Below, one piece after another: positions 2,064-34,316 of a stretch of 38,257 nt of DNA (its first letter is position 1; every line of letters begins with the position of its first letter). This DNA is from a virus, in the IMG/VR virus record IMGVR_UViG_3300035136_000034, positions 1 to 38,257 of that record; one strand, written 5' to 3'. Both the position numbers and the translations under genes were made by a program. The notes under the pieces are model-generated. The model was not told the origin of the DNA, searched no databases, and saw nothing but the letters and a program-made list of their open reading frames with translations.

Positions 2064-2083
2064 TTGCGAACTCGAGTTCGCAA
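2064..2083. repeat. Palindrome copy 1 (CGAACTCGAGTTCG family)
   Basis: This is a perfect 20-bp palindrome, TTGCGAACTCGAGTTCGCAA, starting 12 bp after the terminase stop. A TTGACA hexamer (2057-2062) lies immediately upstream, but no convincing -10 box sits at the right distance. As RNA it would form an 8-bp stem with a UCGA loop. Confidence 0.9.
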
Positions 2084-2097
2084 AAATAATCTATTCG

Positions 2098-2122
2098 ACC
2101 AGAGACCGTTTTGGTCTCTGGT
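2098..2122 (+). terminator. Hairpin after terminase, possible terminator
   Basis: Arms ACCAGAGACC and GGTCTCTGGT form a perfect 10-bp stem around GTTTT. The first long T run is about 25 bp further on, so intrinsic termination is uncertain; it may be an mRNA 3'-end structure. Confidence 0.5.
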
Positions 2123-2204
2123 GACGCAAGTTCCTTGTTTGATATATCTTTTTTTAAGAAAAAACACATAAAATCAAAAAAATATTCTATTGTGTCAAAA
2201 ATAG

Positions 2205-2233
2205 TTGACAGATAGCATATATAAAAGTACCAT
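2205..2233 (+). promoter_or_regulatory. Possible sigma70-type promoter before the portal operon
   Basis: TTGACA at 2205-2210 is followed after 17 bp by TACCAT (2228-2233), a 4/6 match to the -10 consensus. The start would fall just before the hairpin at 2244, so the transcript would meet a terminator at once; this could be an attenuated promoter. Confidence 0.4.
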
Positions 2234-2243
2234 TTGGGATAGG

Positions 2244-2275
2244 GACTAGTGTATCAACTGGTCTTTTTTGTTTTT
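2244..2275 (+). terminator. Intrinsic terminator or attenuator
   Basis: GACTAGT and ACTGGTC pair over 7 bp (one G-U), directly followed by TTTTTT and then more T. It lies between the possible promoter at 2205 and the first small gene of the head operon, so it could either end upstream transcription or attenuate the operon. Confidence 0.65.
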
Positions 2276-2291
2276 AGCATGGAAGATGAAA

Positions 2292-2516
2292 ATGGAAGAA
2301 ATATCTCAAGGTGTTTCTGAGCTGGATGGTTATCGACAAAATCCACACATTGTAGTCCAGACTGGTGATGAAGAAGCAAAGAAAGTACATGTTATTCCAC
2401 TGTCTTTTATTCAAGATGTCATATCAGGAGATAGGCAATGGAGTGACATGGAAGATGGTGATGCAATTCTGAGAAGGATTCTTACTGAATGGATAGATAG
2501 GATGCCTAGAGGATGA
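2292..2516 (+). CDS. Small hypothetical protein, 74 aa
   Basis: I do not recognise this acidic protein (starts MEEISQGVSE). The open frame extends upstream to a TTG at 2268 that lies inside the terminator T run. I chose the ATG at 2292 because GGAAG (2281-2285) sits 6 bases before it; ATG 2286 is a close alternative. It opens the head operon between terminase and portal and overlaps the next gene by 4 bases (ATGA), which suggests translational coupling. Lacking motifs, no function is assigned. Confidence 0.6.
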   Translation: MEEISQGVSELDGYRQNPHIVVQTGDEEAKKVHVIPLSFIQDVISGDRQWSDMEDGDAILRRILTEWIDRMPRG

Positions 2517-2731
2517 CAAAAGAAGAGATTATCTATGCTATAGAGAATCGTATTCGTGTGAGGGGGAATATAGCTGGCGTACTGGTATCTGGATGCATAA
2601 AAGAAATTGGATATTTGCAAATAAAAGCTGGTCCTGGATATATACAGAGAGCAGTTGCCACTATAGTTAATGACGATAATTTAGAAGTATATTGTCATAT
2701 CAAAGATATCGAAAAGGTTAATTTTGTCTAA
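2513..2731 (+). CDS. Small hypothetical protein, 72 aa
   Basis: This is an unrecognised 72-aa protein beginning MTKEEIIYAI, with alternating hydrophobic and charged residues consistent with a compact alpha/beta fold. The start overlaps the upstream stop (ATGA), with AGAGG just before it. Its 3' end overlaps the portal start by 8 bases. The tight overlaps on both sides argue that it is a real member of the head operon. Confidence 0.6.
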   Translation: MTKEEIIYAIENRIRVRGNIAGVLVSGCIKEIGYLQIKAGPGYIQRAVATIVNDDNLEVYCHIKDIEKVNFV

Positions 2732-4337
2732 TATTCTGCGCTGGTTACTCGGCAAAACTGGACAAGAGACATGGATTGAGCCAGATAGTTATGTAGCAGA
2801 TAAAATAACTGGATATTTTGGCCGTACTACAGATAGAGACCAAATTCGTGATGCTATCATACAGAGATATGGTACTGGGTTTAGAATCGATAAGGATGCG
2901 ACTAGTGGCATTACTATAAAATCATATGAACGGTCCGGATTCCGCGAACGAATGATGGCTAACCAGATCGAGATCGTGTCACTTGGACTAGGTCATAAAA
3001 TTGTTAATGCATTATCTAATTTATTCTCGGAGACTACACAGAATTTTTCGTATGTATCTAAATTAAATTCAATTGATATATCAAAAATAGTTGAATATCT
3101 GGATAAAATGAGAAATGGAGAGCAATATTTAGCTGGTTTAACTTCTGCTGATATAATGAGTATACAATGTGCAAGTTCTACGATTTTTACAGAATTCATT
3201 GATGGTCGTCTTAGATATAGGGTGCTTGATCCAGGAAAAATAAGGATGATGTACCATGAAAGTATAGAGGTAGATGGAAGGATTCAGCCGACTGATTACA
3301 GAAGAATAGATGATGCATCTAAAATAATTATTAAGACTGGTACCATATCAGATGGAATAACAGATAGATATGTGGGTATAGTAGGAAGATGTGACCAATA
3401 TCCTATTGGTAGATACGTCGCTTATACTGGAGATGCTGATAGTAGAGATTTGCCAGCTGTAGGGTCTGGAAGTGCTATGGATTGGAGGATTGATGGTGAA
3501 ATAGCTAATCCATTAACATATTACGGTTTGATGAATCCTGATTTAGAAGTTCCTGAGTATCCTATATCTATAATATATGGTGGGAATGCAGGTAATATTG
3601 GTGATGATGATATTCTGCCTTTATCCGATTCGTTGATGCGAGATAGCTTAGAATGTGACATTGCTGCGTCACAAATAAGGGGAGCGGCGGCAAAACATTC
3701 AGAAGGCACACGTGTTCTTACTAAATCTAAAAATGGTAGCAGTCAATTAATACCTAGGTCATTACACGGTAATGTAATTTTAGAGGATGGACAAAAACTT
3801 GAAGATTTGAAAAATGATATTGCGTCTGTGCAAATAGCGTGGGAAACGCTTAGGTCTCAAATGGTATCTATTGCATCATCATATATGGTGCCTGATTATC
3901 TCATTTCTTCAGAAGACCATACTGTTGAGGCATCATCTGGTGTGGCTTTGAAAGTAAGAACAAAGCCACTGCTTAAATTGCGTGAGAATAGGGTGCGGCA
4001 AAATAAACCTTCTATATATAGGTTATTCGAAATAGAAAAGGCATTGATTTCTATTTTTGCTGATGTTGATAATGATCAAATTATAGAAGTCCTAAAAACA
4101 TGTGAGCAAAAATGGGATGCTGGAGAGATGATAGCTCCTGAAAATGTTGTTGAAAAAACTAATGTTTTAAAAACGCTATATGAGATTGGAGTTTATGATC
4201 CTATAGAAACAATTCGTATTCAATATGGACTAGGGTCAGAAGCTGAAGCCATTGATATGTACAATAAATTGAAAAAAAGAAGTCAATTATATCCTTCATT
4301 ATTAGATACAAACAATGTAGATATAGTCGATGATTAA
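2724..4337 (+). CDS. Portal protein
   Basis: The 537-aa protein, placed between terminase and scaffold/capsid genes, has the size, position and composition of a tailed-phage portal: the dodecameric ring at one head vertex through which DNA is pumped and to which the neck binds. The start is TTG at 2724 (MSNILRWLLGK), with AAAGG about 8 bases upstream; no ATG fits better. The middle is rich in short beta strands and the C-terminal third is helical and charged (KKRSQLYPSLL), as in other portals. The identification rests mainly on gene order and size, since portals are poorly conserved in sequence. Confidence 0.8.
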   Translation: MSNILRWLLGKTGQETWIEPDSYVADKITGYFGRTTDRDQIRDAIIQRYGTGFRIDKDATSGITIKSYERSGFRERMMANQIEIVSLGLGHKIVNALSNLFSETTQNFSYVSKLNSIDISKIVEYLDKMRNGEQYLAGLTSADIMSIQCASSTIFTEFIDGRLRYRVLDPGKIRMMYHESIEVDGRIQPTDYRRIDDASKIIIKTGTISDGITDRYVGIVGRCDQYPIGRYVAYTGDADSRDLPAVGSGSAMDWRIDGEIANPLTYYGLMNPDLEVPEYPISIIYGGNAGNIGDDDILPLSDSLMRDSLECDIAASQIRGAAAKHSEGTRVLTKSKNGSSQLIPRSLHGNVILEDGQKLEDLKNDIASVQIAWETLRSQMVSIASSYMVPDYLISSEDHTVEASSGVALKVRTKPLLKLRENRVRQNKPSIYRLFEIEKALISIFADVDNDQIIEVLKTCEQKWDAGEMIAPENVVEKTNVLKTLYEIGVYDPIETIRIQYGLGSEAEAIDMYNKLKKRSQLYPSLLDTNNVDIVDD

Positions 4338-4476
4338 AAAAGAAGGAAATAGATGGGTACTATACACATCGGATGGAAAGCACAAATTAGGTGGTCCATA
4401 TAAGACAAGGAAAGAAGCGTTAGATAGAGAAAAACAAGTTCAGTATTTCAAGTATAAAAATAAGAAAAAATCTTAG
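4330..4476 (+). CDS. 48-aa basic phage protein
   Basis: This short gene overlaps the portal stop by 8 bases and encodes a basic protein (MIKKEGNRWVLYTSDGKHK..., ending in KNKKKS). Its pattern, a VLYTSDG beta hairpin, LGGPYKTRKEAL and then REKQVQYFK, resembles a very common small protein found beside phage terminase and capsid genes; I recall the pattern but no established function. The stop is immediately followed by palindrome copy 2. The high Lys content fits nucleic acid or procapsid contact, but that is a guess. Confidence 0.7.
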   Translation: MIKKEGNRWVLYTSDGKHKLGGPYKTRKEALDREKQVQYFKYKNKKKS

Positions 4477-4500
4477 TTGCGAACTCGAGTTCGTAACTAA
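4473..4500. repeat. Palindrome copy 2, extended stem
   Basis: The 14-bp core (4480-4493) is extended by TTAGTT on the left and AACTAA on the right. In RNA this gives a 12-bp stem with a single G-U pair and a UCGA loop. The left arm overlaps the stop codon of the 48-aa gene. Confidence 0.88.
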
Positions 4501-4563
4501 TAGATATATAGATACATCATTTTAAGCATGCTGGTACGTCCAGAATAAAACGTGGAGGCTAAA

Positions 4564-5190: not shown

Positions 5191-5203
5191 AGGATTTTAA
5201 GAA

Positions 5204-6112
5204 ATGTATGAGTTTGATTCATTAATCAATAACGTCGTCGAGAAGAAGATCGAAGTCGTTACAGTTGCTAAGCCATATGAAGATTTGAAGAAAATTTTCA
5301 ATTATGAGCAAATGAATGATGGTGGAAGTGCCGTAAGGCTTAACATCGAAGCATCCCATACGAGCGCTGCTCGGAATTTTACTCGGTCTGATGTGGATCC
5401 TACAGGTGGCTCTGAGACATATGTTGAAGCGCGTTGGGACAACGTATACACAGAAGTCCCGATGGAAATCAGCAGGATCGATATCAATGAGGCTGTTGGT
5501 CGTGGAGAATTTATGGTCGAGAGTCTGTTTACTAAAGCTTACAAAGTAGCTCTGGTAGATTTGAATAACAAGATTTTCGACAATATTTATGCTCGTATAA
5601 GAGCTGATCTATTGAATTCAGGAACCTATAGTGATGCTGCATTGGTGCGTGCTTCATATCCTGCGGCATTGACCGTGCATAATGATATCACTGCAACACC
5701 ATTGACCTATGGTTTAGTCAGGAGTTGTCGCAGCAATACTGTGAATGGAAAAGAAGTTGGGGACATTGCGTCTAACTATGTATGGATGATTGAGCAGACT
5801 GCGTGGGATACGCTTGAACCACAGTTACAACTGTTGAACACATGGATTGCATCTCCAGGGGATGCAATGTCACCAGGTGGATATGCACCTGTTGGTTCTA
5901 TTAGTGGAGTTCCGACATATACGCCCAATGGAATGACAGATGGAGATACATTCTTCTTACGACGAGAAGACATACATATGAGAGAGAATATGGCTAGGAT
6001 TACAGAAGAGGTTCAATCTGGTAGATTCACACGAAAATGGATCATCAGGATTGGTCTAACACCGTGGGTGGAGAACTGTAGGCTTCATGGAATGATGACA
6101 AATAAGACTTAA
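5204..6112 (+). CDS. Major capsid protein
   Basis: The 302-aa protein follows the scaffold by 13 bases and has the size and composition of an HK97-fold major capsid protein: a long helical N-terminal arm (MYEFDSLINNVVEKK), a mixed middle, and a beta-rich C-terminal part (TRKWIIRIGLTPWVENCR). Its codons look more GC-balanced than those of the fibre genes, as is common for highly expressed virion genes, though this is by eye only. No protease gene is visible, so processing, if any, is unclear. Called from position and size together with the scaffold. Confidence 0.82.
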   Translation: MYEFDSLINNVVEKKIEVVTVAKPYEDLKKIFNYEQMNDGGSAVRLNIEASHTSAARNFTRSDVDPTGGSETYVEARWDNVYTEVPMEISRIDINEAVGRGEFMVESLFTKAYKVALVDLNNKIFDNIYARIRADLLNSGTYSDAALVRASYPAALTVHNDITATPLTYGLVRSCRSNTVNGKEVGDIASNYVWMIEQTAWDTLEPQLQLLNTWIASPGDAMSPGGYAPVGSISGVPTYTPNGMTDGDTFFLRREDIHMRENMARITEEVQSGRFTRKWIIRIGLTPWVENCRLHGMMTNKT

Positions 6113-6171
6113 TATAGGTTTTATTGTTAGAAGATAAAAATAAATAAAAATATATAAAAGGAGATGATGAT

Positions 6172-6531: not shown

Positions 6532-6532
6532 G

Positions 6533-6548
6533 ACGAACTCGAGTTCGT
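6533..6548. repeat. Palindrome copy 3
   Basis: ACGAACTCGAGTTCGT, a perfect 16-bp palindrome, begins one base after the stop of the 119-aa gene. Here the outer pair is A-T instead of G-C, so the symmetry is kept while the base changes. Confidence 0.9.
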
Positions 6549-6575
6549 TTTAATAGTTTCCTTTCTTCCTTGCGA

Positions 6576-6608
6576 AACTGGGCTTTTTTGTCATTTTTAA
6601 GCCCAGTT
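6576..6608 (+). terminator. Hairpin with T-rich loop, possible terminator
   Basis: AACTGGGCTT pairs with AAGCCCAGTT over 10 bp around a 13-base T-rich loop. No T run follows the 3' arm, so it may be an RNA stability element or a weak terminator that lowers expression of genes after the decoration protein. Confidence 0.45.
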
Positions 6609-6685
6609 GTCATGGTGTGGCGGTCATGACCTGATGAGCAGCCGGAATACCAAGTACCATCGAGCAGATGCAAAGGAGGCATAAG

Positions 6686-14058: not shown

Positions 14059-14074
14059 GCGAACTCGAGTTCGC
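14059..14074. repeat. Palindrome copy 4
   Basis: GCGAACTCGAGTTCGC lies between the neck gene stop and the sheath start. The right flank CAGAAGGA leads directly into the sheath ribosome site; the same right flank CAGAAG or CAGGAG recurs at copies 6 and 9. Confidence 0.92.
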
Positions 14075-14087
14075 AGAAGGATAAGAG

Positions 14088-15497
14088 ATGAAATTATCAG
14101 AAAAGGTTAATGTTAGTTTCGCCTTAACTGCTGTTCCTCCTGCAAGTGCTGGATTTTCAGTACCGTTGCTGATTGGCGCTTTCCCTGAAGTACCGATTGA
14201 TAGGAGATACAGAATTGTAAGTAAAAGCGATTATGCAACTATTATGGATACTACTACAGAAGCTCAAAATTGGTGTAGTTTCCTGTGGGGACAAAATTAT
14301 AACGTAGCTCAAGCATATATGGGTAGATGGGTTAATGCTGACTCTAATCCTTATTTTGCTTGCGTTTCTCCAGCTACATTTGATGCATCATGGGCAAGTG
14401 GAACACCCATTACTAATGGGTCACTTGACATCAAAAAGGGTGTCACTACTAGTAATGTGACAGCAATTGACCTTACTGGGGACACATCATGGACAGATGT
14501 ATGTGCCTCAATTGAGGCTGGTACAGGTTTTCCGGCTGATGTAACTGTTTCTGTTGATGTATTGGGCAGAATTATCTTTACCAATACAACGGGTGTTGGT
14601 TCGGCTCAAGATGATATTAGTGTGTTGAGTTCTGGTACTGGTACAGATTTGACTACTTCTACGTATCTGAACATTGATAGTGGAATTTCTGTTTCCGGAA
14701 TGGATGCTGAAGATCCAGATGCTGCTTTAGCAGCTATACTTGAGAAGACTAATGTGCCTTATGAAATCCACGAGATTGGGGCATCTGCTAGTCAGCAAGT
14801 TGCTTTGGGTATTGCTTGTGCCGTTTACAAAAAATTGCTGATGCTTAATTTGCGTTTGCCGGCTGTAAAAGATAGTGCCTCAACCACTGACGCAGCCTAC
14901 CTACTTGATGCGGCGAATAATAGTTATGCATATGGGATATATACAGAACATGCCGCTCAATACCCTACTGCTGCCGTCAATGGAGAGATCCTTCCGAGAC
15001 CGGAAGGATCTGCAGCTATGGCTAATAACGCATTGCAACTGGTTTATGAATCAGGATTGAGTGGTGGCAGTCCAATCGCATTGACACCTGGAGAGAGAAC
15101 AGCTCTGAATGACAAAAACTGTGATTACCTTGTTGCCCCTGTCAGTCCTGTTCATTGTGAAAGAGGTCTAACTTTTGCCGGTATAGAGGTAAAGCATCGT
15201 GTAGGGTATAATTGGGCTGAAGTGAGAAGCGCTGAAGAGATATATGCATATCTATTGGCCAATGAAGTTACATATAATGACGTTGATATACAGGCGATCT
15301 GTGGAATTCTGTACCATTATATTGACATATTGGTTAAGCGCAAATGTGTTGCATCGTATGAAATAAATGTTCCTAGTGCTGCTGATATTTCTCTCATTGT
15401 TCAGGCGACACATACATTGAGTCTATTGGAGATTGCATCTGCAATTTCAGCATATGCGGTAAATGATGTTGTGATGACTGCAACAGCTACTGCATAA
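14088..15497 (+). CDS. Tail sheath protein (DUF3383 type)
   Basis: The 469-aa protein matches the DUF3383 sheath pattern: N-terminal VNVSFALTAVPPASAGFSVP, then YRIVSKSDYATIMDTTTEAQ, a variable beta domain with AIDLTGDTSWTDVCASIEAG, and a helical C-terminal domain (TYNDVDIQAICGILYHYIDI). Sheath subunits surround the tube and contract on infection, so this gene establishes a myovirus tail. An AAGGA site lies before ATG 14088. The coding sequence contains an 11-bp inverted repeat at 14986-15011. Confidence 0.88.
   Translation: MKLSEKVNVSFALTAVPPASAGFSVPLLIGAFPEVPIDRRYRIVSKSDYATIMDTTTEAQNWCSFLWGQNYNVAQAYMGRWVNADSNPYFACVSPATFDASWASGTPITNGSLDIKKGVTTSNVTAIDLTGDTSWTDVCASIEAGTGFPADVTVSVDVLGRIIFTNTTGVGSAQDDISVLSSGTGTDLTTSTYLNIDSGISVSGMDAEDPDAALAAILEKTNVPYEIHEIGASASQQVALGIACAVYKKLLMLNLRLPAVKDSASTTDAAYLLDAANNSYAYGIYTEHAAQYPTAAVNGEILPRPEGSAAMANNALQLVYESGLSGGSPIALTPGERTALNDKNCDYLVAPVSPVHCERGLTFAGIEVKHRVGYNWAEVRSAEEIYAYLLANEVTYNDVDIQAICGILYHYIDILVKRKCVASYEINVPSAADISLIVQATHTLSLLEIASAISAYAVNDVVMTATATA
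14986..15011 (+). repeat. Inverted repeat inside the sheath gene
   Basis: AGATCCTTCCG and CGGAAGGATCT form a perfect 11-bp stem around AGAC. It encodes EILPRPEGS, so it may simply be chance, or it may be an mRNA structure affecting sheath expression. Confidence 0.75.
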
Positions 15498-16474: not shown

Positions 16475-16488
16475 CGAACTCGAGTTCG
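16475..16488. repeat. Palindrome copy 5
   Basis: CGAACTCGAGTTCG begins at the base after the upstream stop codon and ends 13 bases before the chaperone start. The outer flanks are A and C, so symmetry stops at the 14-bp core here. Confidence 0.92.
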
Positions 16489-17014: not shown

Positions 17015-17277
17015 TATTTCCAAAGCATATGGCATTGGATATTGTAGACTCTGAAATATTCGATGTCGCACATTTTTGGCATGTCAATCCATTAGATGTA
17101 GAAGAATGGCCAATAACAAAGTTTTCTCGGGTGCAAGAATTTGTTTTTTGGAGGAGAGAGATTGAGAGACAGCAATATTCTTCAATTGATGTGGATAATA
17201 AGTCAACCGGAAGAATAAGTGATAGTAAGCGTGCTAGTCTTGAGCAATACGAAAGTAAGGCTTCAGGTAAAAAATAA
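16951..17277 (+). CDS. Tail assembly chaperone, frameshift extension
   Basis: This frame lacks a well-placed ribosome site at its first ATG (17029) and is open upstream to 16936, inside the preceding gene in the -1 phase. It is best read as the C-terminal extension of a frameshifted chaperone, with sequence such as DVAHFWHVNPLDVEEWPITK. In other phages the equivalent extension binds the tape measure or tube. It ends with TAATG, coupling to the tape measure. If no frameshift occurs, an 82-aa protein from 17029 is the alternative. Confidence 0.7.
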   Translation, partial: EHGGRYNGKPLTLQRRTKDGIIFPKHMALDIVDSEIFDVAHFWHVNPLDVEEWPITKFSRVQEFVFWRREIERQQYSSIDVDNKSTGRISDSKRASLEQYESKASGKK

Positions 17278-22946: not shown

Positions 22947-22960
22947 CGAACTCGAGTTCG
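22947..22960. repeat. Palindrome copy 6
   Basis: CGAACTCGAGTTCG lies between spike stop and next start, followed by CAGAAGAAATG, so the right flank leads directly into the start codon of the next gene. Confidence 0.92.
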
Positions 22961-23469: not shown

Positions 23470-23862
23470 ATGGCACAATTAATACATTTATCAAAAAATG
23501 AATCAGGTGATTGGGATATGGTTCTAAACAATGGTGAATTCGAGATGTGTGAGGATGGGGAAGCCGCTGCTGTTCACTGTGTAGAGAGGATATTGCTTGA
23601 CAGAGTAGAAACTGTTGGAAATCCATTAGTCAATACAGTTAAAAATCCAAATATTGGTACTCAATGGTATGGGATAATTTTTCAAAATGACAAGCCTCAA
23701 ATTGTCAAAGAGTTTGAGTTGCGAAGAGTTATTTTGGGTACACCTGGAATTGAGGCCATCACAAAGTGGTCATGGATAGAGAAGAATAGGATATTGTATT
23801 TGGACATTAGGATGCAAACTGCATGGGGTGAAATGACTATGCAAGAGGAAATACCGCTATGA
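23470..23862 (+). CDS. Baseplate wedge protein, gp25/W-like
   Basis: A 130-aa protein located between spike and J-like genes, the normal place for T4 gp25/P2 W homologues. Sequence such as AVHCVERILLDRVETVGNPL (the conserved region after the short N-terminal beta hairpin) and a C-terminal RILYLDIRMQTAWGEM fit that family. GAGGA lies before the ATG. It overlaps the J-like gene by 4 bases (ATGA). Confidence 0.72.
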   Translation: MAQLIHLSKNESGDWDMVLNNGEFEMCEDGEAAAVHCVERILLDRVETVGNPLVNTVKNPNIGTQWYGIIFQNDKPQIVKEFELRRVILGTPGIEAITKWSWIEKNRILYLDIRMQTAWGEMTMQEEIPL

Positions 23863-24989
23863 GTACATATGATGCCGATGGTCTAACCATGGACCGGTAT
23901 GATGATATATTATCTGCTATGATTGTACTGGCTGAATATTGGAAAGGTGAGAGTTTGTCAACAGATGAACAAACTCTTATGGGCCATTTATTGAGGCAGG
24001 TTGCATATCAGGCAGATAATGTTAATGAGAAAATACAATCATTATATAGCAATATGTCTGTATCTGATAATATTGGTAATGGTTTAGACAATATTCTTGA
24101 ATTAATTGGTTTATTTAGACAATCTGCTGTTAAAAGTACTGCTACAGTTACGTGTGTTGCATCAAAAGCTTGTACTATACCTGCTGGGTCATTAGTGAAA
24201 ACATCAGCAAATGTTTATTTTTTAACCGATGATGAGTTAATTTTTGCAGGGTCTGGGTCTGATAATGTAGGTGTAACATGTACTGAATTTGGTCCGATAA
24301 GTGGAGAAGCTGGGGAAATAAATACAATTGTTAATTCTGTGAATGGTTGGTCATCAGTTAATAATTCAACTGCTATTATACCAGGTAGAAATAGAGAGAC
24401 TGATACGGATCTGAAAATCCGTCATACAACTGCTGTTGCAACGTCTGGAGAGAGAGATGCAGCAAGTATAGCTGAAGCTGTAGGTGATGTTACAGGAGTT
24501 TCGGCTGTGAAAGTCCTGGAGGATACTGCTTCACCGACTCCTGTTTATGTGTATGTGATAGGTGGAGCTGATGCTGATATAGCAAAAGCAATTGATGACC
24601 AACTAACTGTCGGAATTGGAACAGGAGGTACAACAGCAGTCGATGTATATAATGATACATTGAGAGAGGTAAAAACGATTAGATTTTCTAGGGCAACAGA
24701 TGTTGATATATATATAGATATGGTGTTGAGTATAAATGAAAGTCTATTTCCGGCTGATGGTGATTTGCAAATAAAAGAAGCATTATCTGGTATATTTAAT
24801 GGAAATAGTATTGGTGTAGATGTTATTTATAACAAACTTTTTCAGCCGATATATACTGTTCCAGGTGTAATAGTTAGTCAACTATTTATAGGTACATCTC
24901 CGTCACCTTCTGGTACGTCGGATATAACGATAGGAAATGCATGGAGAGCAGTTTTAGATACAGCAAATATAGGTATTTCACATGTCTAA
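23859..24989 (+). CDS. Baseplate J-like wedge protein
   Basis: The 376-aa protein carries the J-like pattern: a helical N-terminus, a beta domain (KACTIPAGSLVKTSANVYFL), GPISGEAGEINTIVNSVNGW, then the diagnostic RETDTDLKIRHTTAVATSGE, DAASIAEAVGDVTGVSAVKV, and a C-terminal VPGVIVSQLFIG. J-like proteins form the wedge ring that triggers sheath contraction. Coupled on both sides by overlaps. Confidence 0.88.
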   Translation: MSTYDADGLTMDRYDDILSAMIVLAEYWKGESLSTDEQTLMGHLLRQVAYQADNVNEKIQSLYSNMSVSDNIGNGLDNILELIGLFRQSAVKSTATVTCVASKACTIPAGSLVKTSANVYFLTDDELIFAGSGSDNVGVTCTEFGPISGEAGEINTIVNSVNGWSSVNNSTAIIPGRNRETDTDLKIRHTTAVATSGERDAASIAEAVGDVTGVSAVKVLEDTASPTPVYVYVIGGADADIAKAIDDQLTVGIGTGGTTAVDVYNDTLREVKTIRFSRATDVDIYIDMVLSINESLFPADGDLQIKEALSGIFNGNSIGVDVIYNKLFQPIYTVPGVIVSQLFIGTSPSPSGTSDITIGNAWRAVLDTANIGISHV

Positions 24990-27258: not shown

Positions 27259-27521
27259 TACATAGTTCCGTAATGTCCTTAAATGATTTAAGTTCTTTTA
27301 CCAAACACATGGTTCGTGTTTAGTTCTATAAACTCCTTTTAAAATCAACACATGTTTACGAGAATCGATTCTGACGGCCATTGGCGCTATAGTCGATGAA
27401 TAGGACGTCCAGAAAGGGAAGGCAATAGAGGGGCTTCTGGGGCTTTCATATTTTCCACAGTGCGACATCGCCGTTGACAACGGCGATGATTACATGTGAT
27501 ATATGTGTTGCATATTGGACC
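27259..27521. other. Non-coding segment with hairpins after the tail operon
   Basis: No convincing gene. It contains a tag related to two later elements (AATGATTTAAG at 27282-27292) followed by a hairpin AAACAC/GTGTTT, and a 10-bp hairpin CATCGCCGTT-GAC-AACGGCGATG (27466-27488). GTGTTGCATATTGGAC (27505-27520) recurs inverted at 28782-28797 with one mismatch. TTGACAACGGCGA (27474-27486) recurs at 28813-28825. Confidence 0.6.
27466..27488 (+). repeat. 10-bp hairpin with GAC loop
   Basis: Perfect arms CATCGCCGTT (27466-27475) and AACGGCGATG (27479-27488). Part of its sequence is the 13-bp repeat shared with 28813. Confidence 0.8.
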
Positions 27522-27547
27522 AACTACGAATTCCGTAGTTGCTTTTT
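27521..27547 (+). terminator. Intrinsic terminator after the tail/lysis operon
   Basis: CAACTACG and CGTAGTTG pair over 8 bp around AATTC, followed by CTTTTT. It is the first strong terminator after the long late operon, though it lies about 260 bp beyond the last gene. Confidence 0.7.
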
Positions 27548-27558
27548 AAAGTTTTCTC

Positions 27559-27806
27559 AATGATTTCAACATTGTCCTCATCGCCGCCGATGATGGTAAA
27601 TATGGCTAACGAACTCGAGTTCGTTATTTTAGCCAATGATTTCAGTTGCGAGGCTGTCGAGCGCGCTACCAAAAAGCTTAATGATTTCAGCATTGAGGCC
27701 GTCTAGCGCGATGTAAAAACATCAATGATTTCAACGTTGAGGCCGTCGAGCGTATCGTGAAAAACTAAATGATTTCAACGTACGCGCCGTTCAGTCGCGT
27801 ACGTTG
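27559..27806 (+). repeat. Tagged hairpin array (AATGATTTCAA family), five units
   Basis: Conserved 11-base tags AATGATTTCA(A/G) start at 27559, 27635, 27680, 27724 and 27768. The last four are 44-45 bp apart. Each tag is followed by about 8 variable bases, a conserved core near CCGTCGAG, and a 3' arm that largely complements the variable bases. Unit five makes a perfect 11-bp stem (CAACGTACGCG/CGCGTACGTTG). The first interval is 76 bp because palindrome copy 7 lies in it. An AT-rich stretch of about 100 bp follows, so an origin or partition-type site is possible; structured RNA is an alternative. Confidence 0.75.
27607..27626. repeat. Palindrome copy 7
   Basis: TAACGAACTCGAGTTCGTTA is a perfect 20-bp palindrome, with flanks GGC and TTTTAGCC that extend the inverted repeat imperfectly. 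It lies inside the tagged hairpin array, away from any gene start. Confidence 0.92.
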
Positions 27807-27998
27807 ATGGTTGTCTTATTTATTATTGACAAACTACTCTAATCTATCAAAAAAACTGAACGATTGCTTTTCTATAGATAATAAAATACAATATAGTTGT
27901 TATGTAACCAAGACGCGGACTTGGTTGCTATTGGCTGAATGAGAATGTCTCAAAAAGGTTGACAGTATTCCGCTTTTTTTTTCGCAAGGAGGAATAGT
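27807..27998 (+). promoter_or_regulatory. AT-rich leader with possible promoter for the winged-helix gene
   Basis: A possible promoter has TTGCTT (27864-27869), 17 bp, TACAAT (27887-27892). The leader then contains hairpins AACCAAG/CTTGGTT (27906-27926) and TGAGA-ATG-TCTCA (27938-27950). TTGACA at 27826 and 27959 lack good -10 partners. The run of T before AAGGAGG is unusual. Confidence 0.4.
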
Positions 27999-28424
27999 TT
28001 GTCAACTTTAAACAGAATCAGAAGAGATATCCTGGTCGTACTATGGTCGTCACATCCTCGAGGTATGAAGATCGGCAAAATAGCTTCACATCTAGGAATA
28101 GATGTGAACAATATAAGGAGAATCATCTACAGGATGAGAGATGATGTAGACCCATTCATATTCGAAGCAAATAGATGGTATTATTTGACGATAGATGGGT
28201 TAGATGTACTGCATATACGAAGCAATAGGTATGGTACCACAGCTGAGAAATGGGTGAGCCTAGTGAGACAGGGGATGGACAGCCAAGGCCATGAGACAGC
28301 CGTACAGAGAGCGAAGACACCTAGCTGCGATGAGGTAATAGAGCCCAATATCCCACCTATCGAGGAGTGGATCGACATGAAGAGGGAAGTAGAGAGATGG
28401 GGGGGCGAAACACCACCCCATTGA
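27999..28424 (+). CDS. Winged-helix DNA-binding protein, 141 aa
   Basis: The start is TTG 27999, set by AAGGAGG at 27986-27992. Residues 1-75 form a winged-helix pattern: ILVVLWSSHPRGMKIGKIAS, then a recognition-helix-like DVNNIRRIIYRMRDD and a wing RWYYLTIDGLDVLH. The remaining 65 residues are polar. It is not a recognisable CI-type repressor, but its place beside the repeat array makes it the best candidate for a regulator or a protein that binds the local repeats. The stop lies in a 7-bp hairpin CCCCATT/AATGGGG (28416-28433). Confidence 0.7.
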   Translation: MSTLNRIRRDILVVLWSSHPRGMKIGKIASHLGIDVNNIRRIIYRMRDDVDPFIFEANRWYYLTIDGLDVLHIRSNRYGTTAEKWVSLVRQGMDSQGHETAVQRAKTPSCDEVIEPNIPPIEEWIDMKREVERWGGETPPH

Positions 28425-28478
28425 ATAATGGGGATATCGAGTAACACTCGTTACCCTCTAAATATATAATGATTTCAA
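28416..28478 (+). repeat. Hairpins and tag after the winged-helix gene
   Basis: CCCCATT-GAAT-AATGGGG (28416-28433) overlaps the stop codon. A second imperfect stem, GAGTAAC with GTTAC and CTC, follows at 28440-28459. Then comes a 22-base sequence (28457-28478) ending in the AATGATTTCAA tag, found identically at 28892-28913. Confidence 0.7.
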
Positions 28479-28502
28479 TGTCGCGACCGTATGTCGCGAC
28501 AT
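28468..28502 (+). repeat. AATGATTTCAA tag plus perfect hairpin
   Basis: The tag (28468-28478) is followed by ATGTCGCGAC-CGTAT-GTCGCGACAT, a perfect 10-bp stem. TATAAT at 28465-28470 overlaps the tag. This is a dispersed member of the family at 27559. Confidence 0.8.
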
Positions 28503-28508
28503 AATATG

Positions 28509-28536
28509 TTGACAAACCATTTTGAGGTATTAAAAT
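28509..28536 (+). promoter_or_regulatory. Sigma70-type promoter for the 53-aa gene
   Basis: TTGACA (28509-28514), 16 bp, TAAAAT (28531-28536). This is the best promoter match in the window and lies 45 bases before the start codon of the next gene. Confidence 0.65.
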
Positions 28537-28580
28537 CAGTACAGATGCTCAACAAGATGTTGAGCGAAAGGAGAATAAAG

Positions 28581-28742
28581 ATGTTGATAGGATATGAGGC
28601 AATCGAAGCAAAAAAGAACAATGATAGCGTAGTCCTCAACAAGCATGCAGACCCCATAGAAGACGCGCGTTATGACATCTCAGTAGCAGATGCTGAGGAA
28701 ATCGCCAGCGAAGACCCCAGTCTCATCTACGTTGCTGAGTAA
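28581..28742 (+). CDS. Small acidic protein, 53 aa
   Basis: The frame extends upstream to 28491, but that ATG lies inside a hairpin and upstream of the promoter; AAAGGAG at 28567-28573 sets ATG 28581 (MLIGYEAIEAKKNND). The protein is acidic, especially in its second half (ISVADAEEIASEDPSLIYVA). Small acidic early phage proteins are often inhibitors or DNA mimics, but nothing specific identifies a role here. Confidence 0.55.
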   Translation: MLIGYEAIEAKKNNDSVVLNKHADPIEDARYDISVADAEEIASEDPSLIYVAE

Positions 28743-28864
28743 CCGACCAACACCTGCTTAGCAGTAAGAAATCCAAACCAAGTCCAATATGCCACACTTG
28801 TTATTAGAGCCCTTGACAACGGCGACAGATCCATCATTTGCATAAGTATGATATGTGGCATGTT

Positions 28865-28947
28865 GATGTTAGTGAGAAATTCTCACTAACATCTAAATAT
28901 ATAATGATTTCAAGAAGTTACTAGGTGATAACCCCCCTGGGGGGTTA
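28865..28947 (+). repeat. Hairpin, tag, GC-rich hairpin cluster
   Basis: GATGTTAGTGAGAA and TTCTCACTAACATC (28865-28893) form a 14-bp inverted repeat with one central base. The AATGATTTCAA tag lies at 28903-28913, and TAACCCCCC-T-GGGGGGTTA at 28929-28947. The last could act as a terminator, but no T run follows. Confidence 0.75.
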
Positions 28948-28964
28948 ATAATTCTTAAAACATC

Positions 28965-28999
28965 AATGATTTCAATGTTGTCCCCGTCGAGGCCGACAT
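28965..28999 (+). repeat. AATGATTTCAA tag with CCCCGTCGAGG loop
   Basis: The tag at 28965-28975 is followed by ATGTTG ... CGACAT (28975-28980 with 28994-28999, one G-U). The loop side contains CCGTCGAG, the conserved core of the main array. Confidence 0.72.
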
Positions 29000-29078
29000 A
29001 GAAGTAGGTACTTCTGGTTTTCACGAGACGTTACTAATTTAGTTTGTCAACATAATTACGCTGGCAATGAAAAACATA

Positions 29079-29107
29079 TTGACCACGTGATGTGTATGTA
29101 GTAGATT
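29079..29107 (+). promoter_or_regulatory. Promoter for the replication gene
   Basis: TTGACC (29079-29084), 17 bp, TAGATT (29102-29107). The predicted start near 29114 gives a leader of about 120 bases before the gene at 29237. Confidence 0.5.
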
Positions 29108-29113
29108 AAAGGC

Positions 29114-29231
29114 ACTTGTCGGGCCTCCAACAGCCCGACAAGTAAAAAAAACAAACTATGGAGTAAAAAGAGAATATCATCTACTATTTATTTTTGCAAT
29201 TCTTTTTTTACTCCTCATGACTTTTGAGGAG
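29114..29231 (+). promoter_or_regulatory. Structured leader with ribosome-site-hiding hairpin
   Basis: Three stems are visible. ACTTGTCGGGC/GCCCGACAAGT (29114-29143) has 11 bp. GGAGTAAAAAGAGAA (29160-29174) pairs with TTCTTTTTTTACTCC (29200-29214), 14 of 15 positions. CTCCTCA (29211-29217) pairs with TGAGGAG (29225-29231), which contains the ribosome site of the next gene. The last two share bases 29211-29214, so they exclude each other: the upstream stem frees the ribosome site and the downstream stem hides it. No known riboswitch class is recognised. Confidence 0.6.
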
Positions 29232-29236
29232 AAATC

Positions 29237-30451
29237 ATGCAAAATCTGGCGAGTAACAGTCAAAAAAAATTAAATGCATGGGACATACAGAGGATGGTCC
29301 TCAGATGTTCTAAAGACCGATTATCGTGTACTGATAGAATGGTGCTGATAGCATTGCTTGATCACTATCCAACCATGCGTCCAAGTGTGAGACGTATCGC
29401 CGCACTATCAGGATTGGCCGAAAGAACTGTAAGAGAAGCAATAGGACGATTAAAAAAGAAAGAAGTTCTCTCAGTCGAGACTATATTTCTACAGCCAAAT
29501 ATATATCATATAAATGTAGATTTTTTCTCTCATTTAACTATAGTACCACCTGCACCCCCTGCAGGAGATGCACCCCCCCCCCTGCAGGAGATGCACCCCC
29601 CCCCTGCAGGAGATGCATCTAAAGGGAACAATATAAGAAGAGAAGAAGAAGAAAAGAATATAGGGGATTCGCAATCGAATACCACTTCATCTCGAGATCA
29701 AGAAGAAGAAGATCCGGATCGAAGCACGAAGAAAGGGAATCCACAAATAAAGACATTCTCTGCAGCAAATAGGGAAGGGAAAAAAGAACGAGAGCAGACA
29801 GATCTTGAGAGGATGGTGATAGAGACAGAGGAAAAAGAATTTGCCGATTTAAAAAAGAGTCTCGAGAGAGAAGAGAAGAAGGAAAAAGCAAGGAGGAGAG
29901 AGATAGTAGGAGATGAAAATAATTATGACGAAATGAAAGAAAAGGCAATCGCTTTTGGTGATGCCTTTTTTGAGAGTTATCCGAAATCTGACGGTGAGAT
30001 TGGAGCTCGAGATCTAATAGAGCAGATGTGGAGAAATGGAAAAATCAACAAGGATAATTGGGAATCAATTCTCGATGCGGTCGAGAATCAGAAATATGGT
30101 GGTATTTTAGCAAAATTTGATCGATTTGTTCCGTTGGCCAAAAATTGGCTCCGTGATGGTAGGTGGCTCGATAAAAAGCCAGCGAGAAAATCAAAAAAGT
30201 CTAAGAAGAAAAAACATATGGTAGGTGAATATGATCCAGAATCCGCAAATGATGGGCCAGGATTTGGTTGGGTAGATTATGATCCTGACGATAAACCGAT
30301 AAAAAAGCACATGGTAGGAGAATATAATGCAGAGCGTGCGAATAAACGTCCAAGAGTTGGTTGGGATTGGCCGGATGAGCAAAAAAAGAAGAAGCATATG
30401 GTAGGTGAGTACAATGCAGAGCTTGATGGCTCGACAAAGATTGGTTGGTAA
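29237..30451 (+). CDS. Replication initiator-like protein (lambda O-like layout), 404 aa
   Basis: Residues 1-95 hold a winged helix (RLSCTDRMVLIALLDHYP, SVRRIAALSGLAERTVREAI, GRLKKKEVLSVE). A Pro-rich linker follows that overlaps three GC-rich DNA repeats, then a long charged helical region (about 135-235), a compact helical segment (EKAIAFGDAFFESYPKSDGE to VPLAKNWLRDGRWLDKK), and three C-terminal repeats of KKHMVGEY. The layout, DNA-binding N-terminus, origin-like repeats in the gene, and a C-terminal partner-binding part, resembles phage O-type initiators that load host helicase. No helicase or polymerase gene is in the genome, so host enzymes would be used. Confidence 0.68.
   Translation: MQNLASNSQKKLNAWDIQRMVLRCSKDRLSCTDRMVLIALLDHYPTMRPSVRRIAALSGLAERTVREAIGRLKKKEVLSVETIFLQPNIYHINVDFFSHLTIVPPAPPAGDAPPPLQEMHPPPAGDASKGNNIRREEEEKNIGDSQSNTTSSRDQEEEDPDRSTKKGNPQIKTFSAANREGKKEREQTDLERMVIETEEKEFADLKKSLEREEKKEKARRREIVGDENNYDEMKEKAIAFGDAFFESYPKSDGEIGARDLIEQMWRNGKINKDNWESILDAVENQKYGGILAKFDRFVPLAKNWLRDGRWLDKKPARKSKKSKKKKHMVGEYDPESANDGPGFGWVDYDPDDKPIKKHMVGEYNAERANKRPRVGWDWPDEQKKKKHMVGEYNAELDGSTKIGW
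29555..29617 (+). repeat. Three candidate origin iterons inside the initiator-like gene
   Basis: CCCCCTGCAGGAGATGCA occurs exactly at 29555-29572, 29578-29595 and 29600-29617, spaced 23 and 22 bp, about two helical turns. Each contains the palindrome CCTGCAGG. Copy two is in a different reading frame from copies one and three (PAGDA versus LQEMH), so conservation is at DNA level. C runs of 10 and 9 join them. A purine-rich, AT-rich stretch follows. Confidence 0.72.
30182..30448 (+). repeat. Three C-terminal protein repeats (KKHMVGEY...GW)
   Basis: KKHMVGEY followed by acidic/polar residues and a closing GW occurs three times (codon starts near 30206, 30305 and 30389). The copies differ at synonymous sites, pointing to selection on the peptide. 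These could be short docking motifs for a partner such as a helicase. Confidence 0.8.
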
Positions 30452-30453
30452 AA

Positions 30454-30467
30454 CGAACTCGAGTTCG
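30454..30467. repeat. Palindrome copy 8
   Basis: CGAACTCGAGTTCG begins two bases after the initiator-like stop codon; the right flank is CAGAAAAT. A promoter follows 24 bp downstream. Confidence 0.92.
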
Positions 30468-30490
30468 CAGAAAATATATTATTTTAATGC

Positions 30491-30518
30491 TTGACACGGC
30501 GCCTCATGGTGATAGTAT
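30491..30518 (+). promoter_or_regulatory. Early promoter A with duplicated leader
   Basis: TTGACA (30491-30496), 16 bp containing GGCGCC, TAGTAT (30513-30518). The following bases to about 30560 are nearly repeated at the promoter at 31641. CATGGTG occurs twice, at 30505-30511 and 30532-30538, 27 bp apart, and may be an operator half-site pair. Confidence 0.6.
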
Positions 30519-30561
30519 AGACACAGATTGCCATGGTGGCCATCTGAAGAAAGGAAAGGAA

Positions 30562-30984
30562 ATGACAATGAAAAAAATGATGGAAATGGAAACGGAAGTA
30601 ACAGGAATGACATGTGTACAAATGATGGATTACCTAAATGATACAGCTATGGATGTAAATGGATATACGATACATTTACATCCAAAACTGGCGGAGCAAA
30701 ATTTAAAACTCGATTTATCGATCGAAATCGATAGAAAAAAAGGAGACATGATACCTGCCAATGTAACCATTGATAGGATATTTTCTCGATCTATATCTGG
30801 TTTTATTCCTCCTGGATCTACGATTATAGGAGACATCATCACGCCACAAGATGAAAGTGGTGTGCTATTAAAATTAAGAGGGAATATCATAATGTATACA
30901 ACAGGATATGGAGGGCCATACGGCTGTATACGTGCCCTTCCACCAAAAATAACAACAAAAATTGAAGAAAGGATAGGAAAATGA
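30562..30984 (+). CDS. Hypothetical early protein, 140 aa
   Basis: The frame is open from 30445, but this region holds a palindrome and promoter; AAGGAAAGGA directly before ATG 30562 fixes the start (MTMKKMMEME). ATG 30568 and 30577 are alternatives. The N-terminus is Met-rich; the rest is beta-rich with VTGMTCVQMMDYLNDTAM and a hydrophobic Ile/Gly core. No family is recognised. It overlaps the next gene by 4 bases (ATGA). Confidence 0.6.
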   Translation: MTMKKMMEMETEVTGMTCVQMMDYLNDTAMDVNGYTIHLHPKLAEQNLKLDLSIEIDRKKGDMIPANVTIDRIFSRSISGFIPPGSTIIGDIITPQDESGVLLKLRGNIIMYTTGYGGPYGCIRALPPKITTKIEERIGK

Positions 30985-31559: not shown

Positions 31560-31578
31560 GATTCGGTGAGGTTCGGTG

Positions 31579-31609
31579 GGTTAACCCCCCATGGGGGTTA
31601 ACCTTTTTT
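31579..31609 (+). terminator. Strong intrinsic terminator
   Basis: GGTTAACCCCC and GGGGGTTAACC form a perfect 11-bp stem around CAT, directly followed by TTTTTT. It ends the operon containing the 140- and 192-aa genes. Confidence 0.88.
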
Positions 31610-31640
31610 CAAAAAAAACAAAAAACATATGGTTTGCACG

Positions 31641-31668
31641 TTGACATGGCGCCTCATGGTGTTAATAT
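31641..31668 (+). promoter_or_regulatory. Early promoter B, copy of promoter A
   Basis: TTGACA (31641-31646), 16 bp with GGCGCC, TAATAT (31663-31668). About 60 bp, including the spacer and the CATGGTG repeat, resemble promoter A, so both are probably bound by the same regulator. Confidence 0.65.
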
Positions 31669-31709
31669 AGACATAGATGGTCATGGTGACAATCGGAAAG
31701 GACAATGAA

Positions 31710-31991
31710 ATGGCATATGATGAGACAGTTGAAGCGGTCAAGATGCTATCCGCTGTGACGGCACTAGACCGTCCTATTACAGGCTTGCGTATCAAGAGGC
31801 TAGCAGAAGTGCTATGTTCTCTGACAGAGGAAGAGAAGGCCCGTCTGCGCCTTGAGACGTGTTGGCAGGGGGGGAACTCATCGACTAGATTCGGGATTTC
31901 GAAGTGTCGTGTAGGTAGATGTAGGAAGTTGGGTGTAGGAAGAAATACTAGTGATAATAAGGAGTTACAAATTTGGGCAGTATGGTCATGA
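31710..31991 (+). CDS. Hypothetical early protein, 93 aa
   Basis: GGAAAGGA (31695-31702) sets ATG 31710 (MAYDETVEAVKMLSAVTALD). The first 50 residues are helical (ITGLRIKRLAEVLCSLTEEE); the tail is basic and Cys-containing after a run of seven G (31867-31873), where an indel could alter the reading frame. No family is recognised. Confidence 0.5.
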   Translation: MAYDETVEAVKMLSAVTALDRPITGLRIKRLAEVLCSLTEEEKARLRLETCWQGGNSSTRFGISKCRVGRCRKLGVGRNTSDNKELQIWAVWS

Positions 31992-32159
31992 AAGAAAGGA
32001 TTCCCCTCAAGGTGCCGATATGAGGGGAATGGAAGGAAAAAACGAAAGAAAACAACAGAAGTAATCTATATATTGGCACGATATATAAATAAAGTCAATC
32101 GTAAAATGAGACAATTATGTCTCACAAAAAATGCTGAATAGCAGAAAGATGAGAAAAAG
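31992..32159 (+). other. Intergenic segment with two hairpins
   Basis: ATTCCCCTCA/TGAGGGGAAT (32000-32030) forms a perfect 10-bp stem with an 11-base loop, without a T run. TGAGACA-ATTA-TGTCTCA (32107-32124) is a 7-bp stem 35 bases before the next gene. Confidence 0.65.
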
Positions 32160-32546
32160 ATGCAACAGATGAATATTAGGTTTGCAACGACAATGATGGT
32201 TGAGATCGGCGGCGAGACGAAAAACATCGAGGTGATATCAGAAGGAGGATTAATTTGGATTTCCATTAATAAGATCAAGAAGATATTTAACGATATCGAT
32301 ATTCCTTTTGATCCTACCAATCTTGATCTCCTCATGCCGATGAAGAAGCGAATTGTCAGGATGGTCATGATGGACGGAGATCTAGATTTTCAGATCGACA
32401 GCGAATCTATGATCAGATGGATCGAAAAGATCAATGAGAAGAAGGAGGAAGAGAAGAAAGAGAAGGAGGAGAAGGAAGAGGAGAAGAAGGGGGAAGAAAA
32501 TAGTTCGTCAACAATAGAATGGGAGGGGGAAGAAACGACCGAATAG
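32160..32546 (+). CDS. Hypothetical protein with charged C-terminal helix, 128 aa
   Basis: The first 95 residues look globular (MQQMNIRFATTMMVEIGGET to RMVMMDGDLDFQIDSESMIR), followed by an extremely Glu/Lys-rich tail that is probably a single long helix or disordered. No family is recognised. It lies 16 bases before the antirepressor-like gene, so the two may be co-transcribed. Confidence 0.58.
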   Translation: MQQMNIRFATTMMVEIGGETKNIEVISEGGLIWISINKIKKIFNDIDIPFDPTNLDLLMPMKKRIVRMVMMDGDLDFQIDSESMIRWIEKINEKKEEEKKEKEEKEEEKKGEENSSSTIEWEGEETTE

Positions 32547-32562
32547 GTCATAGAGGTAACAC

Positions 32563-33507
32563 ATGGGCAGCGAGATTATACTTTTTGATTTTGAGAATTG
32601 TGAGATTCGAACTCAACTTGGTGACAACGGTGAAGCATTGTTTTGTGCTAGTGATGTGGCTTCAGTGCTTGGGTATGCCAACACACGTGATGCTATATCT
32701 GTGCACTGCAAGGGTGTCGTGAAACGCGACACCCTTACAAGTGGTGGAAAACAAACGATTAATTTCATCCGTGAACCAGATTTGTTTAGGCTGATGTCTC
32801 ATTCGAAAATGCCTGAAGCTCAGAAATTTGAGGCATGGATATATGAGACAGTTCTTCCAAGTATCAATAAGACAGGTGCATATATCGACAAAAAATCACC
32901 TGATATGATTATTGCTGAGAAAAAACTCAAGATCGCAGAAATGAAAGAGAGACGTCTTGCTGCCAAGGAAGAAAGACAACGGCGAAAAGATGAATTTGCA
33001 GAAGAATGCAAAAGGAGGATATGGAAAAAAGACGACGAAAAAATAGCAGATAAAGACATAGCAAAAAAAGCTGAAAGACTAAGGATTGCCGCCAATGATG
33101 CAAGGAAGATTGGCAGGGAAGATTTAGTTCGTCAACTAATTGTAAAGAGAGCATCTGTCATGTCAGGGATTGATTTTGAAAATACAAAAGAAAATATCCC
33201 TGTCATGTCAGATTGTTCCATATATGGGACATCATTCGAGAATAAACGATATTACACACATGAAATAGCCGCAGATGCAGAGATGCATGTGAATACTGTG
33301 GCAAAAGTGGCTAGAGATCTAGGTCTACGTGATAGTGAGCACTGTTTCTCGTCTGTAATCATGGACCATGATGAGACAGAGCGACCTACTGTGGTGTACG
33401 ATGATTACGCAAGAAGACTTATTCTCGATGAAATTAGAATGATAAAGGAGGAAAAAAAGTTAAAAGAAAACAAGCAGTTGAAGCTAATCAAAACAAAAAA
33501 TGACTAA
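32563..33507 (+). CDS. BRO-N domain antirepressor-like protein
   Basis: The N-terminal 110 residues are a BRO-N domain: LGDNGEALFCASDVASVLGY, then a KGVVKRDTLTSGGKQTINFI segment and LMSHSKMPEAQKFEAWIYET. A long charged helix follows (about 125-205), then a C-terminal helix-turn-helix-like part (YYTHEIAADAEMHVNTVAKV). Phage BRO/antirepressor proteins release lysogenic repression or regulate early genes, so this supports a temperate or chronically maintained lifestyle, although no integrase is present. Its first part holds a 10-bp inverted repeat at 32710-32736. Confidence 0.82.
   Translation: MGSEIILFDFENCEIRTQLGDNGEALFCASDVASVLGYANTRDAISVHCKGVVKRDTLTSGGKQTINFIREPDLFRLMSHSKMPEAQKFEAWIYETVLPSINKTGAYIDKKSPDMIIAEKKLKIAEMKERRLAAKEERQRRKDEFAEECKRRIWKKDDEKIADKDIAKKAERLRIAANDARKIGREDLVRQLIVKRASVMSGIDFENTKENIPVMSDCSIYGTSFENKRYYTHEIAADAEMHVNTVAKVARDLGLRDSEHCFSSVIMDHDETERPTVVYDDYARRLILDEIRMIKEEKKLKENKQLKLIKTKND
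32710..32736 (+). repeat. Inverted repeat within the BRO-N coding region
   Basis: AAGGGTGTCG and CGACACCCTT form a perfect 10-bp stem around TGAAACG, inside the coding sequence for GVVKRDTL. It could affect translation or be an autoregulatory operator. Confidence 0.7.
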
Positions 33508-33988
33508 AAGGAAGAAAGGAAATGGAAAAATGCTAATTGAAGATTACAATCAAGCTGATATAATTCTGGGGCCTAAAACATCAATGGAGATTGGTCTTGC
33601 GTCGTATCTAAAGACTGTAGGATTCGGCAGAGCGATGCAATTGATTCAAATCAAATGGGGACTTTACAACGAATCTGGAAAGGATTTGTTCTGCAAGCCA
33701 GGAAGTGAATTCGTTATCGGACCATGTAAAGCCGAAGTGGTGGCATGTGGATGTGATGACCCGGTTGACTGTGAGTGGTGTGCTGGTACTGGGTGGCTTA
33801 CAAAACGAGTCAAGGTCGAAAAAGATGGCAGTACAGCAGAAAAGACAAATAGATTGCTCCATGAAAATAAGCAAAAAATAAGGGAGATGAAGAAAAGAAT
33901 ACAAATAGAGGACCGTACTGCCGATGAAAAATTGCTTGAGATTTTGAAAAAACCAAAGAAGTCCAGAAATGATACAGATAAAAAATAA
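33500..33988 (+). CDS. Zinc-motif protein, 162 aa
   Basis: The centre holds VACGCDDPVDCEWCAGTGW, with four cysteines spaced like one half of a DnaJ zinc domain (CxxCxGxG-like). The N-terminus is helical (TSMEIGLASYLKTVGFGRAM) and the C-terminal third is a charged helix. It overlaps the antirepressor stop by 8 bases. Probably a small zinc-binding protein that contacts nucleic acid or protein; function unknown. Confidence 0.62.
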   Translation: MTKRKKGNGKMLIEDYNQADIILGPKTSMEIGLASYLKTVGFGRAMQLIQIKWGLYNESGKDLFCKPGSEFVIGPCKAEVVACGCDDPVDCEWCAGTGWLTKRVKVEKDGSTAEKTNRLLHENKQKIREMKKRIQIEDRTADEKLLEILKKPKKSRNDTDKK

Positions 33989-34316
33989 TATCGAAGAAAT
34001 GATAAGATTAGTCCATGAGATGATGATTCATAATCATACTATCACGGATGATTGTGAAGAGATAGGGAAGATGATAAGGAAGATGATAGAAAAAATGGCG
34101 AACTCGAGTTCGCAGGAGGAATGCATGAGGAAGAATATGGAGAAGAAAACACAGAAAAGACATATGTGTCCTAATTGCGACGGGTCAGGATTGGATATAC
34201 TGTGTAATGTCTGTTCAGTGTGTAGAGGGGAAGGTACACTATCTTCAGATGAGTTGACGGCATATGAACATGTTTCTTTTGCAGAGATTGATGACAAAGA
34301 AGAAACTAATTGGTAA
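33969..34316 (+). CDS. Two-CxxCxGxG zinc protein, 115 aa (or 63 aa from 34125)
   Basis: The part CPNCDGSGLDILCNVCSVCRGEG holds two DnaJ-type CxxC motifs, so it probably binds zinc. Two starts compete. The long form begins at 33969, overlapping the previous gene, and reads through palindrome copy 9. The short form begins at 34125, preceded by AGGAGG (34114-34119), in the same palindrome-then-ribosome-site arrangement seen at other genes. I favour the short form or both, by internal initiation. Function unknown. Confidence 0.6.
   Translation: MIQIKNNIEEMIRLVHEMMIHNHTITDDCEEIGKMIRKMIEKMANSSSQEECMRKNMEKKTQKRHMCPNCDGSGLDILCNVCSVCRGEGTLSSDELTAYEHVSFAEIDDKEETNW
34098..34113. repeat. Palindrome copy 9
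   Basis: GCGAACTCGAGTTCGC followed by AGGAGG, directly before ATG 34125. This is the only copy that an open frame runs through (coding ANSSSQ). Confidence 0.92.

Follow-up and report, generated by a model that had tools for sequence, protein, structure and literature searches.

A 14-letter palindrome, CGAACTCGAGTTCG, occurs in nine exact copies in the viral sequence analysed here (the window, the whole stretch of 38,257 bases), mostly at gene boundaries, and the same word recurs in a second phage lineage whose virion genes are unrelated. We propose that these copies are dispersed operators for a dimeric regulator, similar to stoperators or to the SPbeta repeats, and that the protein reading them comes most likely from the host or from a co-resident element. 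Judged from sequence comparison, we give this reading a probability of about 0.5.

An exact 127-base terminal repeat marks the window, an IMG/VR virus record, as a complete phage genome of ~38.13 kb on the circular map. Its long genes lie nearly all on the + strand, and the phage is of the contractile-tail type (Table 1). A syntenic relative of 45 kb, G017 (IMGVR_UViG_3300037126_000044), shows 20–53% protein identity across the head-to-tail genes, and a second, more distant virion relative, L185, shows 36% in one baseplate protein. An INPHARED megablast with window bases 1-25000 gave no match, and the INPHARED matches to window material were remote ones only. Genome contigs were searched for the host with TerL and with the Lcl_C lipoprotein domain, and no relative came up.

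Table 1. Palindrome copies and selected genes of the window.
Feature	Position	Strand	Context
Copy 1	2067-2080		14 nt past TerL stop, ahead of gene 2268
Copy 2	4480-4493		3 nt past small ORF 4330-4476, ahead of gene 4552
Copy 3	6534-6547		2 nt past stop 6531
Copy 4	14060-14073		5 nt past stop 14054, before ribosome site of tail-sheath gene 14088
Copy 5	16475-16488		0 nt past (directly adjoins) stop 16474, ahead of gene 16502
Copy 6	22947-22960		3 nt past stop 22943, ahead of gene 22969
Copy 7	27610-27623		within non-coding tract 27259-27998
Copy 8	30454-30467		2 nt past replication-gene stop 30451; upstream of promoter-like 30491-30518
Copy 9	34099-34112		inside ORF 33969-34316, or in leader if start is ATG 34125
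Large terminase (TerL)	46-2052		window
Tail sheath gene	14088-15497		window
Tape measure	17277-20264		window
Baseplate wedge	23859-24989		window
Small protein, weak winged-helix/HTH hints	27999-28424	+	window
O-like replication protein	29237-30451		window
Bro-N / antirepressor-family gene	32563-33507	+	window
Lipoprotein-like gene, Lcl_C repeats	34341-36290		window

We found all nine copies where the preliminary description had placed them. Its further claims about their setting also held: eight of the nine lie wholly outside genes, versus 8.5% of 14-mer positions (P = 2.3e-8), most start 0–14 nt past a stop codon (for copy 2 the distance was measured from a small ORF), and the outer flanking pair is purine/pyrimidine in all nine. 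The same purine/pyrimidine rule holds for all copies in the other lineage. The ORF called over copy 8 (30445-30984) probably begins later, near ATG 30563, which would make copy 8 intergenic. The alternative start past copy 9 is preceded by AGGAGG at 34114-34119. Allowing up to three mismatches added a single weak match in the window, at 32608 (0.45 expected). ACTCGAGT, AACTCGAGTT and GAACTCGAGTTC were each found 9 times, so the window holds no partial copies; the inner 8-, 10- and 12-mers of the palindrome never occur there outside the 14-mer copies, and no other 14-bp palindrome is present more than once. A chance origin was rejected on the copy number, which is far above expectation, and a restriction-site reading was rejected too. 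Directly after copy 3 lies an intergenic Type II hammerhead ribozyme (Rfam RF02276, E 7e-8; 6570-6647, +); G017 also has a hammerhead ribozyme (L142 17445-17507), there not adjoining a palindrome.

We scanned 2.9 million IMG/VR viral contigs for exact matches to RCGAACTCGAGTTCGY and obtained 67 stretches in total. Well-separated repeats of the palindrome occurred only in the window and in one other lineage, with 5 copies in G001, 6 in G002, 6 in G003, 5 in G004, 3 in G005, and 5 plus three one-base variants in G018; G019, G020, L154, L156, L168 and L170 also carry at least two copies. These contigs are pieces of a larger, tRNA-rich phage, G003 overlapping both G001 and G002. Because a single metagenome yielded G001, G002 and G018, which may belong to one genome, we count two lineages and not three. 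Gene calls for the larger phage were mechanical and family-library scans covered part of its proteins; no virion-gene similarity to the window was found. The larger phage encodes a tmRNA (L130 5156-5503, L138 11309-11660; tag VRHNDSQVWAEAA in L130) and ~20 tRNAs.

The palindrome was not found in G017 or L185. G017 has a short gap only, with no palindrome, at the place of copy 4, and no comparable repeated palindrome of any kind. Absent from these virion relatives and present in an unrelated lineage, the word does not track virion genes. The remaining single-copy contigs are mostly GC-rich genomes with the word inside genes, and they look like the background that chance predicts; a scan for the T variant gave a similar background of singles, with more than one copy only in G018. 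A pair in the GC-rich contig L097 was taken as chance, both copies sitting in repeats within a gene (2009-2047, small-gene repeats coding GGTNSSS/GGRTRV), and a copy in L051 was set aside because it belongs to a longer inverted repeat with a T run behind it. A literature search on the 14-mer returned matches from unrelated fields, with titles bearing no phage link.

Several other repeats and shared units were observed in the window. The long non-coding tract at 27260-29240 holds about nine copies of AATGATTTCA(A), then variants of TTGAGGCCGTCGAGCG; these may be what is left of a repeated peptide NDF..EAVER. A unit at 28508-28728, made of a promoter-like TTGACA-16-TAAAAT, a leader and a small gene, is also found in G002 (two places), in G018 and partly in G017. 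The C-terminal part of the replication protein (30193-30453) consists of three repeats of KKHMVGEYNAE...GW, common at the DNA level to a G018 gene end that is without the palindrome. The lipoprotein-like gene has long Asp-Thr repeats and two Lcl_C domains, within the phage. Non-coding DNA at 36850-37350 contains repeated hairpins and gene fragments: a stretch of 45 bases matches the G018 antirepressor gene exactly, and another of 100 bases has 86% identity to G017.

Two sublineages of the larger phage, with ~75% DNA identity, were compared. Of the sites that can be compared, 7 of 7 have kept their orthologous position and an unaltered 12-base core, whereas the aligned surroundings are only ~60–70% identical. 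Two of the seven are inside conserved genes and keep every site codon, 6 in one gene and 5 in the other, whereas only 57% and 54% of the other conserved-residue codons in those genes are unchanged (P 0.034 and 0.047, joint ~0.0016, in a test of modest power). These comparative data indicate that the palindrome is under selection, and the larger-phage relatives, holding the word at the same gene boundaries, support the shared function first proposed for it.

An alignment of 31 distinct non-coding copies over 174 positions left only 16 informative positions, which form the dyad RYGAACTCGAGTTCRY; the conserved unit is exactly this 16-mer. Its central TCGA is invariant in 31/31, no other signal is present within 80 bp, and the flanks have no polarity. 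Positional alignment and promoter and terminator scans gave no promoter, terminator or start-codon signal at a fixed distance from the sites, and in an intrinsic terminator test no copy scored on the gene strand and two scored on the opposite strand only. The one-base end variants (a T at the left end or an A at the right) are equally frequent in both orientations relative to genes, which fits reading as DNA and not as RNA. The preliminary description had also offered an RNA hairpin as an option; as an intercistronic element, the hairpin CGAAC-UCGA-GUUCG would serve processing, stability or protein binding. Sites do sit in tight gaps ahead of ribosome sites, and a short hairpin is predicted for several of them. 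However, A-C outer pairs, impossible in RNA, and G-T outer pairs occur about equally often, inner variants are C-A as often as U-G, the stem has no G-U wobble, and three of the nine copies (5, 6 and 8) fold at only -4.4 kcal/mol. We consider an RNA function very improbable; the comparative data indicate a symmetric site, with dyad symmetry, that is read as DNA.

The window and the larger phage have short DNA tracts in common at 80–100% identity, which suggests that both phages meet in one host. Conceivably, the words could guide recombination between co-infecting phages as boundaries of the modules that these exchange, since both phages, which have exchanged DNA tracts, carry them at gene borders. 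Yet no shared palindromes stand at the ends of the exchanged tracts, G018 has gene ends that are homologous to the one before copy 8 but lack the palindrome, and exact dyad symmetry together with conservation inside genes requires a reader. Of the readings weighed here, we rate this one lowest, slightly below an RNA function.

Copies are always single, at least 2.05 kb apart and spaced about every 2–9 kb, and the comparative data indicate that they are distributed genome-wide. The minimum gap gave P 0.009 against random gene boundaries in the window (2054 bp), P 0.03 in G001-G003-G002 (2113 bp) and P 0.004 in G018 (3174 bp), the test being modest in power in each case. Operators are normally clustered at promoters, and a cooperative cluster at one promoter would not show this even, lone spacing.

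We asked how the sites compare with host LexA boxes. GAAC-N4-GTTC is the LexA motif of Firmicutes and Actinobacteria (PMC3323433), and LexA is named as a candidate because the half-sites and spacing of the palindrome match it: every copy has this geometry, as first described, and agrees with CGAAC-N4-GTTCG at every defined position. The sites might then be SOS boxes of the Gram-positive type at which LexA, by promoter repression or as a roadblock, silences both phages until DNA damage. Phage GIL01 takes host LexA as its repressor (PMC4551915), and a host-encoded LexA could explain one word in two unrelated phages. Against this stand the TCGA centre, fixed in all 31 distinct copies, the lone sites every few kb through late genes, and the lack of any positional promoter signal within 80 bp of the 31 copies, where a LexA box would be expected to associate with promoters. 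LexA regulons have variable centres, the B. subtilis box has an RNRY centre, and we know of no case in which LexA has lone sites every few kb over late genes. The invariant centre, the lone sites and the missing promoter link count against the ordinary SOS form, and LexA in any form appears unlikely to us on these patterns.

Maintenance or chromosome organisation (partition, nucleoid occlusion or DNA bridging) by a ParB/Noc/KorB-type reader of host or phage is the next rival after LexA. It would account for lone, evenly spaced palindromes with a strict 16-bp dyad and no promoter link, their place at gene boundaries merely avoiding gene damage. The larger phage contains two perfect bacterial parS words, TGTTTCACGTGAAACA, at G002 5994-6009 and 32987-33002, which makes partition less far-fetched (G002 is IMGVR_UViG_3300034989_000065; its second parS word is also in G003 and G004), and KorB, a ParB-type clamp, acts as a long-range silencer on a plasmid (PMC11790492). 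However, the palindrome differs from TGTTTCACGTGAAACA and does not count as a variant of parS, which itself does not occur in the window even when 2 mismatches are allowed. Among the proteins scanned none was recognised as ParB/Noc, and an organising site would not need to sit so exactly at gene ends. An organising role thus seems to us more doubtful still than LexA.

Dispersed operators are the explanation that we prefer. A strict, unoriented dyad points to a dimeric DNA-binding protein: a sequence-specific dimer would bind RYGAACTCGAGTTCRY as a symmetric operator, present singly at gene boundaries over the whole genome. Lone sites at gene ends through early and late genes suggest segment-wise control of transcription (PMC6550527), in which the bound protein would shut off or meter transcription one segment at a time, by a block of elongation or of a nearby start, as at stoperators. 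Because the same word is present in two virion-unrelated lineages and missing in the virion relatives of the window, the reader most likely lies outside the phage, supplied by a common host or a co-resident element.

Several points count against dispersed operators: comparison yielded no protein plausible as a regulator common to both lineages, the sites are lone, unlike the usual promoter clusters, and no integrase turned up among the window proteins scanned, which leaves silencing as a prophage conjectural. No phage-encoded repressor gene was recognised. The small protein at 27999, proposed earlier as a winged-helix binder, gained no support, with Pfam matches below cut-off and no clear homologue in the other lineage; its AlphaFold model (pLDDT 38) was useless and was set aside. 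Antirepressor-family proteins occur in both lineages, as Bro-N in the window and as P22_AR_N/Bro-N in G018; a palindrome precedes the G018 gene, and the Bro-N gene of the window is a possible modulator of the system.

We suggest tentatively, as a possibility less likely than not, that both phages, although unrelated, answer to one regulator that neither encodes, through an operator word identical in the two and placed in single, evenly spread copies at gene boundaries. Such cross-phage, genome-wide silencing could be the work of host LexA as a roadblock or of a new dedicated regulator. To our knowledge, only a few phages use dispersed repressor sites that halt transcription between genes, and each of them has a repressor of its own; the same strict palindrome, evenly spaced in two virion-unrelated lineages, differs from those cases. 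If one outside regulator reads the word, phages that are unrelated have arrived by convergence at a single control code spanning their genomes. With the 16-mer one could fish out the binding protein and, by pattern search, the host.

How does the palindrome compare with known systems? KorB of plasmid RK2, a ParB-type clamp, is loaded onto DNA at palindromic operators and from there silences distant promoters (PMC11790492), but its operators have another sequence, and no KorB/ParB gene was recognised among the window proteins scanned. GIL01 resembles the present case in geometry, its host repressor LexA using GAAC-N4-GTTC boxes (PMC4551915); these boxes lie only in promoter P1, whereas the palindromes lie alone across whole genomes with a fixed centre. 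T1-like phages (T1, Stevie, TLS) have many mainly intergenic 22-bp repeats that were likened to stoperators (PMC4319613; PMC11447400) but are asymmetric, oriented and of another sequence. The SPbeta repeated element (SPBRE), bound by MrpR (YopR), is likewise a recurrent intergenic element within a phage and was predicted from sequence long before its repressor came to light (PMC10516654). It is a 15-bp motif of different sequence in the promoter regions of one prophage, whereas the palindrome has no promoter signature and occurs in two lineages. MrpR is a repressor with a tyrosine-recombinase fold, and no protein of this kind was noticed in the window. Cluster A mycobacteriophages (L5, Bxb1) carry 20–30 short repressor sites genome-wide, mostly off promoters, at which the phage repressor stops elongation (PMC6550527; PMC9283540). 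These stoperators are asymmetric, oriented with transcription and variable between phages that each have their own repressor, whereas the palindrome is a perfect unoriented dyad, identical in two unrelated phages. The likeness to stoperators noted in the preliminary description therefore does not extend to asymmetry or orientation, and a halt of transcription at the palindromes would be by analogy; in their many short copies, dispersed and mostly at gene boundaries, stoperators are the best fit.
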